A model generated the notes under the pieces. The model saw only the letters and a list, made by a program, of their open reading frames with translations, searched no databases and was not told the DNA's origin. From a candidate division WOR-3 bacterium (GTDB taxonomy: Bacteria > SDB-A): DNA of 32,233 bases. The stretch covers positions 1 through 32,233 of the forward strand of contig JAFGSQ010000022.1 of NCBI GenBank assembly GCA_016934535.1, read 5' to 3'. Below, piece after piece: positions 24,030-31,573 of the stretch (positions are counted from its first letter, which is position 1; every line of letters begins with the position of its first letter). The translations under genes were made by a program, and so were the position numbers.

Positions 24030-24803
24030 TTATTTTCTTCGTTCTATGACAGCGTAGGCGGAATGATTATGAATACTCTCCATGCTTTCGCATTCGGCGC
24101 GGAACCAAAGTGTTCTTTTATCGTCTAAAAGTTCTTTGGCAATGCCTCTGACCACGTCTTCGACAAAACGCGGCCTGTCGAAAGCATTTTCCGTGACAAA
24201 TTTTTCGTCTTCCCTTTTGAGCAGGGAAAAAACCGGCCCGCTCGAGTTGCGTTCAGCCAATTCGACAAGTTCTTCTATCCAGATGAAATCGTTGTATCTC
24301 ACCTGAATTCTAACAGCCGCCCTTTGATTGTGAGCTCCCCTGGCGGATATCTCCTTGGAACAGGGGCAAAGCGTCATCACCGGGACTTTCACTTCGAGAA
24401 CAAAATCATCTTTTCCACCCGTCGCCGCGCGAAAACAACAGTCGTAGTCCATCAAACTCTCTATTTTGCTGACGGGAGCCTTCTTTTTTATGAAGTATTT
24501 AAATCCGACTTCCATCAACGCTTTTTCAGCCTCGAGACCTTCTTTTACATGTTTTAATATCTCTCCCATGTTGAGCATTGAAAATTCTTTTTGATACGAG
24601 TGCAGGACGCTGACGAACCTGCTCATGTGAGTTCCCCTGTAATGTTTCGGCAGTTCGACGAACATCGAGATTCTGGCAATGGTCTGCTGTTTTGTGTTTG
24701 CCCTGTCTTCGACCGAAATCGGGAAAAAGATGTCTTTTACGCCGACTGAATCGACGTCTATTCCGTGCTCGGGCTCGTCGTTCTGAATATCCGGCATGCT
24801 CAA
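24030..24803 (-). CDS. folE2: GTP cyclohydrolase FolE2
   Basis: A 257-aa GTP cyclohydrolase of the IB type, converting GTP to dihydroneopterin triphosphate. The signature TLCPCSKEISARGAHNQRA carries the metal/catalytic cysteine (C146 or C148) and the nearby histidine; the YRGTHMSRF segment supplies another conserved His. The C-terminus has FVEDVVRGIAKEL and the final ESIHNHSAYA. Unlike FolE1, this family can work with metals other than zinc. The start is TTG at 24803 with AAAGG about 8 bases upstream; ATG at 24797 is an alternative. One base separates it from queD upstream, so the two form a unit supplying the first two steps toward 7-deazaguanines. Confidence 0.95.
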   Translation of the reverse strand: MSMPDIQNDEPEHGIDVDSVGVKDIFFPISVEDRANTKQQTIARISMFVELPKHYRGTHMSRFVSVLHSYQKEFSMLNMGEILKHVKEGLEAEKALMEVGFKYFIKKKAPVSKIESLMDYDCCFRAATGGKDDFVLEVKVPVMTLCPCSKEISARGAHNQRAAVRIQVRYNDFIWIEELVELAERNSSGPVFSLLKREDEKFVTENAFDRPRFVEDVVRGIAKELLDDKRTLWFRAECESMESIHNHSAYAVIERRK

Positions 24804-24804
24804 T

Positions 24805-25170
24805 TCATTCGCCTTTGTATGAACAGCGGGAACTGTCGCTTTCCCAGACAGTTATCTCAAAGAGCTGGGGTAAAACCGGCTTTAAACTGTTCCAAAGCCA
24901 AATAACGAGATTTTCACTCGTTCCGGATTCGACGCCTTCAATTTCGTTGAGAAATTTATGATCTATTTTTTTTATTGTCGGATTGACAATATCTTTAATG
25001 TCACCGAAATCCATGAGCCATCCCTTGTCGGGATCTACCTCGCCCTTGACACTGACTTCTATCCTGAATGAGTGACCGTGAATTGAACTGCACTTGTGCT
25101 CCTTGGTCAATCCCGCAATTTTGTGAGCGGCGTCAGCCCTGAAAGTTCTCGTCAAAATCACTGTTTTCAT
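24805..25170 (-). CDS. queD: 6-carboxy-5,6,7,8-tetrahydropterin synthase
   Basis: A 121-aa enzyme that turns dihydroneopterin triphosphate into 6-carboxytetrahydropterin for queuosine/preQ0 synthesis. Zinc ligands H16, H31 and H33 and catalytic C27 (KCSSIHGH), then D70-H71 and E110 (VWESDSSRC), fall at almost the same positions as in E. coli QueD. The C-x3-HGH spacing marks QueD rather than the glutamate-containing PTPS-III type used in folate synthesis. The ATG at 25170 sits 7 bases after a perfect -10 box with no ribosome-binding site, suggesting leaderless translation. It leads the queD-folE2 unit. queE, queC and tgt are not in the window. Confidence 0.95.
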   Translation of the reverse strand: MKTVILTRTFRADAAHKIAGLTKEHKCSSIHGHSFRIEVSVKGEVDPDKGWLMDFGDIKDIVNPTIKKIDHKFLNEIEGVESGTSENLVIWLWNSLKPVLPQLFEITVWESDSSRCSYKGE

Positions 25171-27658: not shown

Positions 27659-30600
27659 ATGAAAAAATTCATTCCAGACTTTATATCGGAAAAATATTTC
27701 AAGGGAGAATACGAGGGCACATTTACGGGATGCGTCATGTTTCTCGACTTGACAGGATTTACTTCCATAACAGACAAACTGATGAAAGAAGACAAAGAGG
27801 GCATAGAAGTTCTCGGTAATTTCATCAGCCGGACGTTTGAGAGAATAATTACAAGCATACACGGGAAAAAAGGATTTGTTTCATCATTCGAAGGAGACGC
27901 TTTAACGGCAATTTTTCCCGGAGAAGAAAGTCACACGAACGCTTTATTGTCTTCCGATGAAATCACCGGCTACTTTTCCGACAAATCCGTTTTCAGAACC
28001 AGATTCGGAAATTTTTATATGTCCATAAAAACAGGTATATCTTTCGGCGAAATAGAATTTTCAATAATCGGAAACGATTTGAGAAAAATATATTATTTTT
28101 CAGGTGAAACTGTCAAAAATTGCATCGAATGCGAAAATAACTGCGACATGATGGAAACTGTAATCGACGCCCGCATGAACGTCAAATCTTTCCGTTCGGC
28201 AAAGACGCGGCCTCTTTCCAACAACATGTTCGTTTTGGAAAAACTTCTCATCGCTCAAAAAACAGAATATGTACTGACAGAACAATCAGCGGACGCCTCC
28301 GAAAAATTCATTCATCCAGGCATTTCAAAAATAACTCGTCAGGGTGAATTCCGTTTAATATCGCCAGTTTTCATTTCAATCAAGCAAACTGAAGCAAATT
28401 CCGTTGAATCGGTCGTCCTTTCAATACTGAATCTTTCAAGTGAATTCAGAGGACATGTCAATAAAATAACTTACACGGACAAAGGTTTTGTCTCTTTAGT
28501 GCTTTTCGGAGCTCCGGTTTCATTCGACAATAACATTGAGAGAGCTTGCGGGTTTTCACTTAAGCTTAAGGATATTCACGGTGACAATATAAAAATTGGA
28601 ATGACTCACGGAACAGTTTACGCAGGATTTGTTGGAGGGATTTCAAGATGCGAATACACCGCGCTGGGAAGTGTTGTAAATCTTGCCTCGAGGCTGATGA
28701 CCAGATCTGAATACGGCGAAATTTTGATTACAGACGATGTCGGCAACAAAGTTAAGGACAAATTCATCACCGGCGAGTTTTTACTCGAAAAACTCAAAGG
28801 ATTTAATAAAGAGCAACGCATCGGAAAGCTGATGTCTAAAAAAAATAAACTGACCGATTTCGAAACCGAATTCGTGGGCAGGGAAAATGAATTGTCCTTT
28901 TTGACAGGGCAATTGAAAAAAACATGCTCGGGATTCTTTCCCGGCTTGCATTACATATACGGCGAAGCGGGAATGGGAAAATCCCAGCTCATAAAAGAGT
29001 TCACAAAAAGATCGTCAAAAAATGCCCGCACATTCATTTTCACTACCGATCCGGTTGTGAAAAAAAGCATGAACCCTGTTAAACTTAGCCTCAATAAATG
29101 TTTTGACATTTCAGAACAAGCGAGTCTTTCTGAAAACAAGACCGCTTTCGAGAATAAATTTTCCGAATTATTCAAAAATTTTGTTTCGAAAACCGATGCT
29201 GATCCGCCAAGTGATGAAATTCTGAGGATAAAGGTTTTTGTGGGGTATTTTCTAGGCTTTTTTTCAAACCATCCTATGATTTCAGACATCGAAAACAGCA
29301 AACTGCCTGAACTCATAAACCTGTCGCTGAGAGATTTTTTCCGTTTTCTGTCGTCTATCAAACCCATAATAATTGTCTTCGACGATTTCAATGATTACGA
29401 CTCGGACTCCTTGGCTTTTATCAAGACTCTTTTTATCAACATCGAGCATTATCCGATCATGATAATATTTTCGAGTCGTTTAAACGACGACCTGTCAAAG
29501 CCGAAGATACAAACCGATCCCGAAATTGAATTTATCGACATTCTTCTTTCCGAGTTATTGCCTGAACAAAATGCAATCATGATTGAAAACTTCCTCTGTC
29601 ACAAATGCGATAAGGATTTGCTGTATTTTATACACGAGAGAGCCGGGGGTAATCCTTTCTATACTGAACAATATTGCTTTTTCCTGCTTGAAAACGGACA
29701 CTTAAGACTTTCAGAAAATATTTTCCGGCTCGACAGAAACACTGAAGAAATACCAGTCAGGATAAATGACATTATAGTATCGAGAATTGATAGACTCACC
29801 GGGGAAATCAAAGAGACGATTGTCATTTCAAGCGTTCTCGGCATGGAATTCGAAGTCGATGTTTTGAAAGAACTGATAAAAATCTACAGAACACATTCAG
29901 AGAAAGCGAGCAAGCAATTCGACGACATAGATGGCGTAATAAAAACTACGACAGGATTCAGAATATGGAAAAAAATCACCGAGTTAAAATACATATTCAG
30001 CCATTCTCTTTTGAGAAACACTGTTTATCAGATGCAATTAAAAGAACACTTGAGATCACTTCACAAATTGGTCGGAGAAGTTCTTTTGAACAAGTTCAAA
30101 GACGATCCCGCACATTACCCGGAAATAGCATATCATTTCGAAAACGCTGAGCTTATGGAACTCGCCTGCGAATATTACAAAAAATCCGCGGTAGAATCAC
30201 TCGAAAAGTATTACGTTGAGAAAGCATGGGAATATTTGAAAAAATCCCTAAAAATATCAGTCAAGCTGTATGGCAGCTGCCATCCGGAGACATCAAAAAT
30301 ACTGAAAATCACGGGTCGGTACTTGTTTGAAAAGGGAGATTACCGTTCTTCAGTTTCCGTTTTGGAAAAATCACTCGAAATTCTTGAAAAATTCAACATT
30401 GAAGACGTGTCTCTGAAAATCAAATATTTCATCGACATCGGTATAAATTACCGTTACATGGGTGAATACGACAAAGCCCTAAAATTCTATGAATCCTGCA
30501 TATCCCTGCTTCCAGAAAACTCAGATCTTCCCGAAGAGATACTGACGAATCTCGCAGTAATTTACAAGGAAAAAAATGAGTACCAAAAATCGTTGGATTA

Positions 30601-31573
30601 CTCCAACAAAGCTTTAAAAATTCAAAAAAACAATTACGGAGAATTGGATGAAAGAGTTGCCGACACATACAATAACATAGGTGTGGTTTTAACGGAAATA
30701 AACCGTCTCGATGAAGCTCTTGAATACCACAATAAGTCGATAGAGATTATGGAGAAGATTGGCAAATCACGGTCTCCAAAAAACGCTTATTTCACTGCGA
30801 ATATTTCCGTGTGCTGTTATTATAACAACGATCTTCAAAAATCAATCAAATACATAGACAAAGCCATAGACGTTTTAAAAGACATTTACGGAGAAAAACA
30901 CCCCGACATAGCCTTTTTATACGGCAACAAAGGAGCCATCTACAACGATGTTCCCGATTATGAAGGTGCGATATATTTTTTCGGCAGAGCTCTCGAAATT
31001 TACCAGGACACTCTTGGCCTCGAAACTGTATTTGCCTGCAATATTTTCAACAACATCGGTTATTCATATTTGGAAAACGACAATCTTGAAGAGGCACTGA
31101 AATATACTGAAAAGGCATTGTCAGGCAGAATGAAACACTTCGGAAAGCATCACGCCGAGACAGCAACTTCTTTAAATCAACTCGGCAACATTCAAAGAGA
31201 ACTCGGGAATTTAGAAGAGTCTTTAAAACATCTCGGCGCTTCTTTATTCGGATTTACAAAAATATTCGGAGTAAACAATAAGTATTCAATAATCGTACTG
31301 ATCAACATGGCCAAAACTCTCATGAAAACAGGGAATTTGACTAAAGCGCGCGTTATCATAGAACGAGCCGATCAAATAAACAAACTACTGGACATTCCTG
31401 ACGATCAAAGCACGGCGAGGATAGAAGAATTATTCGGCGATCTTTATTCTTCCATGGGTGACATTGAACGAAGCAAAGCACATTATTATGAAGCTGAAAA
31501 CATATACAAAAAGATCGGTTTACCCAAATATCTTTCATCGTTAAAAGAAAAACTCAAAAATGTTTCAGATTGA
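27659..31573 (+). CDS. Soluble-adenylyl-cyclase-like protein: two cyclase domains, P-loop ATPase, TPR array
   Basis: A 1304-aa cytoplasmic protein with no membrane segment. C1 (about 20-200) has both metal aspartates, D30 in MFLDLTGFTSIT and D80 in FEGDALTAIFPG, but its later part (FSGETVKNCIECENN) lacks the Asn and Arg of the active site. C2 (about 248-395) lacks the first metal Asp but ends CEYTALGSVVNLASRLM, with N341 and R345 in the transition-state position. One composite active site between C1 and C2 is therefore likely, as in mammalian cyclases. Residues about 405-750 are an AAA_16/STAND-type ATPase (Walker A GEAGMGKS, K441; IIIVFDDFND as Walker B; RAGGNPFYTEQ). Residues about 815-1300 hold eight or more TPRs, some in the kinesin-light-chain style (YNNIGVVLTEINRLDEALEY). 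Product is probably cAMP; cGMP is not excluded. The order C1-C2-ATPase-TPR is that of ADCY10. No HTH output domain is present. Confidence 0.88.
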   Translation: MKKFIPDFISEKYFKGEYEGTFTGCVMFLDLTGFTSITDKLMKEDKEGIEVLGNFISRTFERIITSIHGKKGFVSSFEGDALTAIFPGEESHTNALLSSDEITGYFSDKSVFRTRFGNFYMSIKTGISFGEIEFSIIGNDLRKIYYFSGETVKNCIECENNCDMMETVIDARMNVKSFRSAKTRPLSNNMFVLEKLLIAQKTEYVLTEQSADASEKFIHPGISKITRQGEFRLISPVFISIKQTEANSVESVVLSILNLSSEFRGHVNKITYTDKGFVSLVLFGAPVSFDNNIERACGFSLKLKDIHGDNIKIGMTHGTVYAGFVGGISRCEYTALGSVVNLASRLMTRSEYGEILITDDVGNKVKDKFITGEFLLEKLKGFNKEQRIGKLMSKKNKLTDFETEFVGRENELSFLTGQLKKTCSGFFPGLHYIYGEAGMGKSQLIKEFTKRSSKNARTFIFTTDPVVKKSMNPVKLSLNKCFDISEQASLSENKTAFENKFSELFKNFVSKTDADPPSDEILRIKVFVGYFLGFFSNHPMISDIENSKLPELINLSLRDFFRFLSSIKPIIIVFDDFNDYDSDSLAFIKTLFINIEHYPIMIIFSSRLNDDLSKPKIQTDPEIEFIDILLSELLPEQNAIMIENFLCHKCDKDLLYFIHERAGGNPFYTEQYCFFLLENGHLRLSENIFRLDRNTEEIPVRINDIIVSRIDRLTGEIKETIVISSVLGMEFEVDVLKELIKIYRTHSEKASKQFDDIDGVIKTTTGFRIWKKITELKYIFSHSLLRNTVYQMQLKEHLRSLHKLVGEVLLNKFKDDPAHYPEIAYHFENAELMELACEYYKKSAVESLEKYYVEKAWEYLKKSLKISVKLYGSCHPETSKILKITGRYLFEKGDYRSSVSVLEKSLEILEKFNIEDVSLKIKYFIDIGINYRYMGEYDKALKFYESCISLLPENSDLPEEILTNLAVIYKEKNEYQKSLDYSNKALKIQKNNYGELDERVADTYNNIGVVLTEINRLDEALEYHNKSIEIMEKIGKSRSPKNAYFTANISVCCYYNNDLQKSIKYIDKAIDVLKDIYGEKHPDIAFLYGNKGAIYNDVPDYEGAIYFFGRALEIYQDTLGLETVFACNIFNNIGYSYLENDNLEEALKYTEKALSGRMKHFGKHHAETATSLNQLGNIQRELGNLEESLKHLGASLFGFTKIFGVNNKYSIIVLINMAKTLMKTGNLTKARVIIERADQINKLLDIPDDQSTARIEELFGDLYSSMGDIERSKAHYYEAENIYKKIGLPKYLSSLKEKLKNVSD

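Follow-up and report, generated by a model that had tools for sequence, protein, structure and literature searches.

The window analysed here is the whole 32,233 nt stretch of contig JAFGSQ010000022.1 from a candidate division WOR-3 bacterium (GenBank assembly GCA_016934535.1). On its forward strand, an open reading frame with an ATG start encodes a protein of 1304 aa. It is made up of two class III cyclase domains (C1 and C2) followed by a P-loop NTPase of the STAND type and then by a solenoid of TPRs. The features of this gene are listed in Table 1.

Table 1. Features of the sAC-type cyclase gene, with positions in the window
Feature	Position	Strand	Basis
sAC-type cyclase gene, C1-C2-STAND NTPase-TPR, 1304 aa	27659..31573	+	ORF, Pfam, phmmer, paralog profile, fold match
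C1 cyclase domain, residues 4-176; provides metal aspartates, without catalytic Asn/Arg	27668..28186	+	Profile match, phmmer to ADCY10, predicted structure
D30 (human sAC D47, metal)	27746..27748	+	Alignment, translation
D80 (human sAC D99, metal)	27896..27898	+	Alignment, translation
C2 cyclase domain, residues 227-396; provides Asn/Arg and base-recognition residues, without first metal Asp	28337..28846	+	Pfam Guanylate_cyc, profile, predicted structure
K269 (human sAC K334, ATP base recognition)	28463..28465	+	Alignment, published roles
T334 (human sAC T405)	28658..28660	+	Alignment
N341 (human sAC N412)	28679..28681	+	Alignment, published roles
R345 (human sAC R416, alpha-phosphate)	28691..28693	+	Alignment, published roles
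STAND-type P-loop NTPase (AAA_16), residues 404-603	28868..29467	+	Pfam, motifs; near-invariant in alignment A4
Walker A GEAGMGKS (435-442)	28961..28984	+	Motif; in 98/99 full-length homologs
Walker B IIIVFDDF (570-577)	29366..29389	+	Motif
GNP motif of STAND NTPases (664-666)	29648..29656	+	Motif, alignment
Putative helical/winged-helix-like region joining NTPase and TPRs, residues about 702-793	29762..30037	+	Model m9381a4af6c5f
Helical solenoid, kinesin-light-chain-type TPRs, residues about 817-1301	30107..31561	+	Pfam TPRs about 890-1240, phmmer, model, fold search

Besides the AAA_16 and TPR matches in Table 1, Pfam recognised Guanylate_cyc at residues 308-366, in C2 only. C1 was too diverged to be called by Pfam, and was detected by human ADCY10 in a phmmer search (query residues 5-169) and by a profile of the paralogs. 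No transmembrane segment was found in the protein, the highest Kyte-Doolittle mean over 19 residues being 1.38, and the modelled chain consists of soluble folds along its whole length, as expected of soluble adenylyl cyclase (sAC). Hence, the protein has the features by which sAC has been defined (PMC6660944), namely a chain that contains two class III catalytic domains, no membrane segment and a P-loop NTPase following them. The gene is surrounded by metabolic genes and an ABC transporter, and neither a cNMP gene nor any other signalling gene was found next to it. Adjacent genes for a FolE2-type GTP cyclohydrolase and a 6-pyruvoyl tetrahydropterin synthase are located at 24030-25170 in the window, on the reverse strand.

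Residue equivalence was read from a 119-row alignment of 118 bacterial tandem proteins and human sAC, and the functional roles of the human residues were taken from Table 1 of PMC12867704. In addition to the pairs listed in Table 1 above, K124 of the window protein corresponds to human K144, and D274 to D339. C1 carries both metal aspartates and has lost the Asn/Arg pair, the positions matching N412 and R416 being occupied by K153 and E157. Conversely, C2 carries the Asn/Arg pair and D274, and its first metal aspartate is replaced, by S240 in the window protein and by N298 in the human enzyme. This is the split site of sAC, and the original prediction had read both halves of it correctly. The core residues are retained in the bacterial tandem proteins far beyond chance (D47 in 116, D99 in 118, N412 in 115 and R416 in 111 of the 118). 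The base-recognition position 334 (K334 in human sAC) is variable, with Lys in 44 of 118, and the substrate may therefore vary among members of the family.

When the single protein was searched against the PDB with phmmer, human ADCY10 was the best cyclase (E 5e-17), with matches over C1 (query residues 5-169) and C2 (248-352). A profile built from 13 paralogs matched residues 20-460 of human ADCY10 with an E value of 1e-49 and 172 bits, the next being CyaB at 87 bits. Residues 1-402 were modelled with AlphaFold2 from 83 aligned natural sequences (pLDDT 94.5, pTM 0.92), and the 24 best PDB matches of this model were all human sAC (TM 0.80-0.85), followed by the transmembrane AC9 at 0.70. Both domains superpose on those of human sAC, though the match is not fully independent as AlphaFold2 has seen sAC structures. 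In the structural alignment, identity to the human protein within the domains is about 20 %. Taken with the residue equivalence, the superposition points to a pocket shared between C1 and C2, and it supports, at the level of a predicted structure, the earlier proposal that one complete and one degenerate site form within a single chain, as in sAC. The order C1-C2-ATPase-TPR, which had also been equated with that of ADCY10, is seen directly in the window protein and agrees with published descriptions of the human protein, of which the truncated chain, up to residue 475, was compared here.

The NTPase is marked by the Walker A, Walker B and GNP motifs. Residues 394-1304, which include the STAND and TPR regions, were modelled with a pLDDT of 91, and the PDB fold matches of this model were to TPR and other helical-repeat proteins only, including kinesin light chain and LGN. 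A phmmer search of the PDB with the STAND part alone returned no match and, hence, the STAND assignment rests on Pfam and the motifs. Mammalian full-length sAC also has a predicted STAND domain and is less active than the truncated enzyme, and none of the nucleotides tested set the full-length isoform, with its STAND/P-loop tail, apart (PMC12802110).

Very probably, the window protein belongs to the sAC (ADCY10) type of class III adenylyl cyclases and works in the cytoplasm, with a proposed STAND-TPR switch and with cNMP-binding proteins as presumed targets. C1 and C2 would fold together within the one chain to form a single catalytic pocket, with D30 and D80 contributed by C1 and K269, T334, N341 and R345 by C2, and ATP would be converted to cAMP in this pocket while the mirror-image site is dead. 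By analogy, the STAND NTPase and the TPR solenoid would act as sensor and switch, such that the TPRs would bind a ligand or partner and this binding, together with nucleotide exchange in the NTPase, would relieve or impose inhibition of the cyclase. The signal is unlikely to be bicarbonate. The cAMP produced would act on the five cyclic-nucleotide-binding proteins encoded in the genome.

The window genome (G000; 2.23 Mb in 76 contigs) includes 22 cyclase-domain matches and encodes at least 14 tandem C1-C2-NTPase proteins that, by summed length, account for about 2.4 % of the assembly. Among the loci fetched, 12-15 tandem proteins each were found in two congeners, one of them candidate division WOR-3 bacterium Zod_Metabat.185, and in one further member of the family, named Desulfuromonas sp. 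SDB at NCBI. The latter genome (LKUE01; loci L053, L105 and L109) falls within the window's own family and appears to be misnamed. Most of the paralogs in the window genome have orthologs across the genus and, therefore, the expansion is old. Tandem sAC-type proteins are also present in genomes labelled Fermentibacteria, Delongbacteria, WOR-3, Marinimicrobia, Cloacimonadota, Calditrichaeota, Gemmatimonadetes, Chloroflexi, Spirochaetaceae/Brachyspira, Actinobacteria and Rhizobiaceae, several of which carry many copies. Outside the family, at least roughly 36 of about 380 sampled genomes hold such a protein, a figure that describes presence and not copy number, as the scan of 386 genomes scored at most a few candidates in each.

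All four core catalytic residues are intact in 11 of 14 paralogs in the window genome. Of the other three, L012 lacks the Asn, L020 has Lys in place of the Arg and L150 carries D47N and R416M, and each has an ortholog in a sister species with the same or a similar loss. The degenerate ortholog sets are L012/L152/L166 (N412 lost), L020/L153 (R416K) and L150/L162 (D47N, R416M). Judged from their sequences, these appear to be conserved non-catalytic members. That paralogs of the same genus have lost catalytic residues and are nevertheless kept as orthologs raises the question of whether the window protein is itself catalytically silent, with the cyclase pair serving as a nucleotide-sensing or scaffold module and the output coming from the STAND-TPR part. 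However, all of the catalytic residues examined, K124, K269 and T334 among them, are intact in the window protein, and we regard a silent protein as unlikely and an active adenylyl cyclase of the sAC type as the better reading.

Candidate readers of the cAMP are the five cyclic-nucleotide-binding proteins of the window genome, among them a cNMP-GGDEF protein and an MscS-type channel that carries a cNMP domain. In four genomes, cNMP genes adjoin homologous cyclases (4 of 116 tandem loci), which supports a role of the family in cAMP signalling. A cNMP-GGDEF gene (L022:2317-3495, reverse strand) is divergent from the tandem cyclase gene beside it (L022:3458-7390, forward strand), and its counterpart in a sister species (L151:3-767, reverse strand) likewise adjoins a tandem cyclase. 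cNMP genes are also found beside the Fermentibacteria cyclase L054 and the Calditrichaeota cyclase L080.

Three further observations concern these genes. The conserved pairing of a cyclase with a cNMP-GGDEF (diguanylate cyclase) protein may provide a direct link from cAMP to c-di-GMP. The Calditrichaeota gene directly downstream of the tandem cyclase (L080:8795-10351) encodes a sigma-54 activator with an N-terminal cNMP-binding domain, and the two are likely in one operon. The MscS-type mechanosensitive channel encoded at L028:400-1926 has its cyclic-nucleotide-binding domain at the C-terminus and is possibly gated by cAMP or cGMP.

The combination of STAND and TPR is frequent in defence proteins, and the PycC models of PADLOC match weakly (34 bits). 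With the variability of position 334 in the family, these features could indicate a different specificity, for cGMP or a pyrimidine cyclic nucleotide, possibly in a STAND sensor that acts against phage and has an output like that of Pycsar. We find this very unlikely. The PycC scores reflect general class III homology, and K269 and T334 correspond to the residues with which sAC recognises adenine. As for a role in defence, many of the paralogs are orthologous across the genus, unlike typical defence genes, and the window gene is found among metabolic and transport genes. Membership of the Pycsar cyclases was rejected, as PycC scores did not exceed 34 bits and no cyclic-pyrimidine effector gene adjoins the window gene. 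Hence, we retain an ATP-using cyclase of the ADCY10 type as the preferred reading.

The relationship to ADCY10 was examined in a tree of 99 domains, comprising 38 C1 domains and 38 C2 domains, the human domain being included in each set, and single cyclases. The 38 C1 domains, human C1 among them, all group together (100/99), as do the 38 C2 domains with human C2 among them (100/96), and the single cyclases lie outside both groups. AU tests rejected trees in which human C1 and C2 are sisters, as expected from an independent duplication in the human lineage (p 0.0074), in which the window C1 and C2 are sisters (p 0.00013), and in which the window C2 joins the single, homodimeric cyclases (p 0.0035). 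C1 and C2 of the window protein thus share ancestry with C1 and C2 of ADCY10, respectively, and the duplication that gave rise to them predates the split of these bacteria from the human gene. Though the low identity to the human domains noted above might suggest that the bacterial tandem cyclase arose by its own duplication and merely resembles ADCY10, the placement of human C1 and C2 in the separate bacterial C1 and C2 clades and the AU rejections make such convergence scarcely credible. The closest sequence to human C1 comes from a protein of Rhizobiaceae (99/90). Human C2, which is on a long branch, groups with the same protein and another proteobacterial protein (99/84). Hence, the window protein is less closely related to ADCY10 than the proteobacterial tandem cyclases are.

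The residues of the human bicarbonate site, K95 and R176, correspond to S76 and I156 in the window protein, which lacks the mammalian site. Among the 118 bacterial tandem proteins, K95 is present in 14 and R176 in none (one has Lys). As the pair is also missing from most non-mammalian animal sACs (PMC12867704), it does not define sAC at large, and the finding that none of the 118 bacterial members has the full pair supports recent proposals that regulation by bicarbonate is a derived trait of animals.

Several known systems resemble the window protein in part. The homodimeric class III cyclases CyaB and CyaC (PDB 3R5G and 1WC0) share the class III fold and match C2 in sequence, but they are single-domain proteins with full sets of site residues, and CyaB lies outside both the C1 and C2 clades. 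The kinase/cyclase fusion of TOMM systems (TIGR03903) has a cyclase followed by an NTPase and TPR region and matches residues 280-859, but members of that family have a kinase domain and the window protein has none. At 100.5 bits against a cut-off of 705.75, membership of TIGR03903 was rejected.

Bacterial sAC proteins with a P-loop NTPase are already in the literature (Roelofs and Van Haastert 2002 and Kobayashi 2004, as cited in PMC6660944), and sAC has been described as nearer to the cyclases of cyanobacteria than to the other cyclases of metazoans (PMC3085406). As described in PMC6660944, the published bacterial sAC or cyclase-ATPase proteins are of the same kind as the window protein, which differs in coming from a candidate phylum where such genes form a large set and in lacking the bicarbonate residues. 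Less expected are the number of copies and the degenerate members kept across species, and the lack of R176 in all 118 bacterial tandem proteins also deserves attention.

The closest comparison is with human ADCY10 (PDB 4CLP and 4OYA), which likewise has C1 and C2 in one chain, one live site formed by the equivalent residues (D47, D99, K144, K334, T405, N412 and R416), the same fold, orthologous C1 and C2 domains and, according to published accounts, a P-loop STAND domain after C2. The window protein differs in being bacterial and one of at least 14 paralogs, in lacking the K95/R176 pair, in its length (1304 aa, shorter than the 187 kDa full-length isoform) and in its clear TPR solenoid. We tentatively suggest, as a picture somewhat short of an even chance, that the split-site sAC is an old bacterial invention, present as arrays of STAND-TPR sensors whose cAMP enters a common pool, here with at least 14 per 2-Mb genome and with conserved non-catalytic members by which the active ones may be modulated. 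Eukaryotic ADCY10 would have branched off from this stock, its nearest relatives among the proteins compared here being proteobacterial, and animals would have added bicarbonate sensing late. In work on male contraception, ADCY10 is a drug target. Bacterial proteins with its order of parts, in many diverged copies, offer tractable material on what its tail senses and how the split site is controlled.
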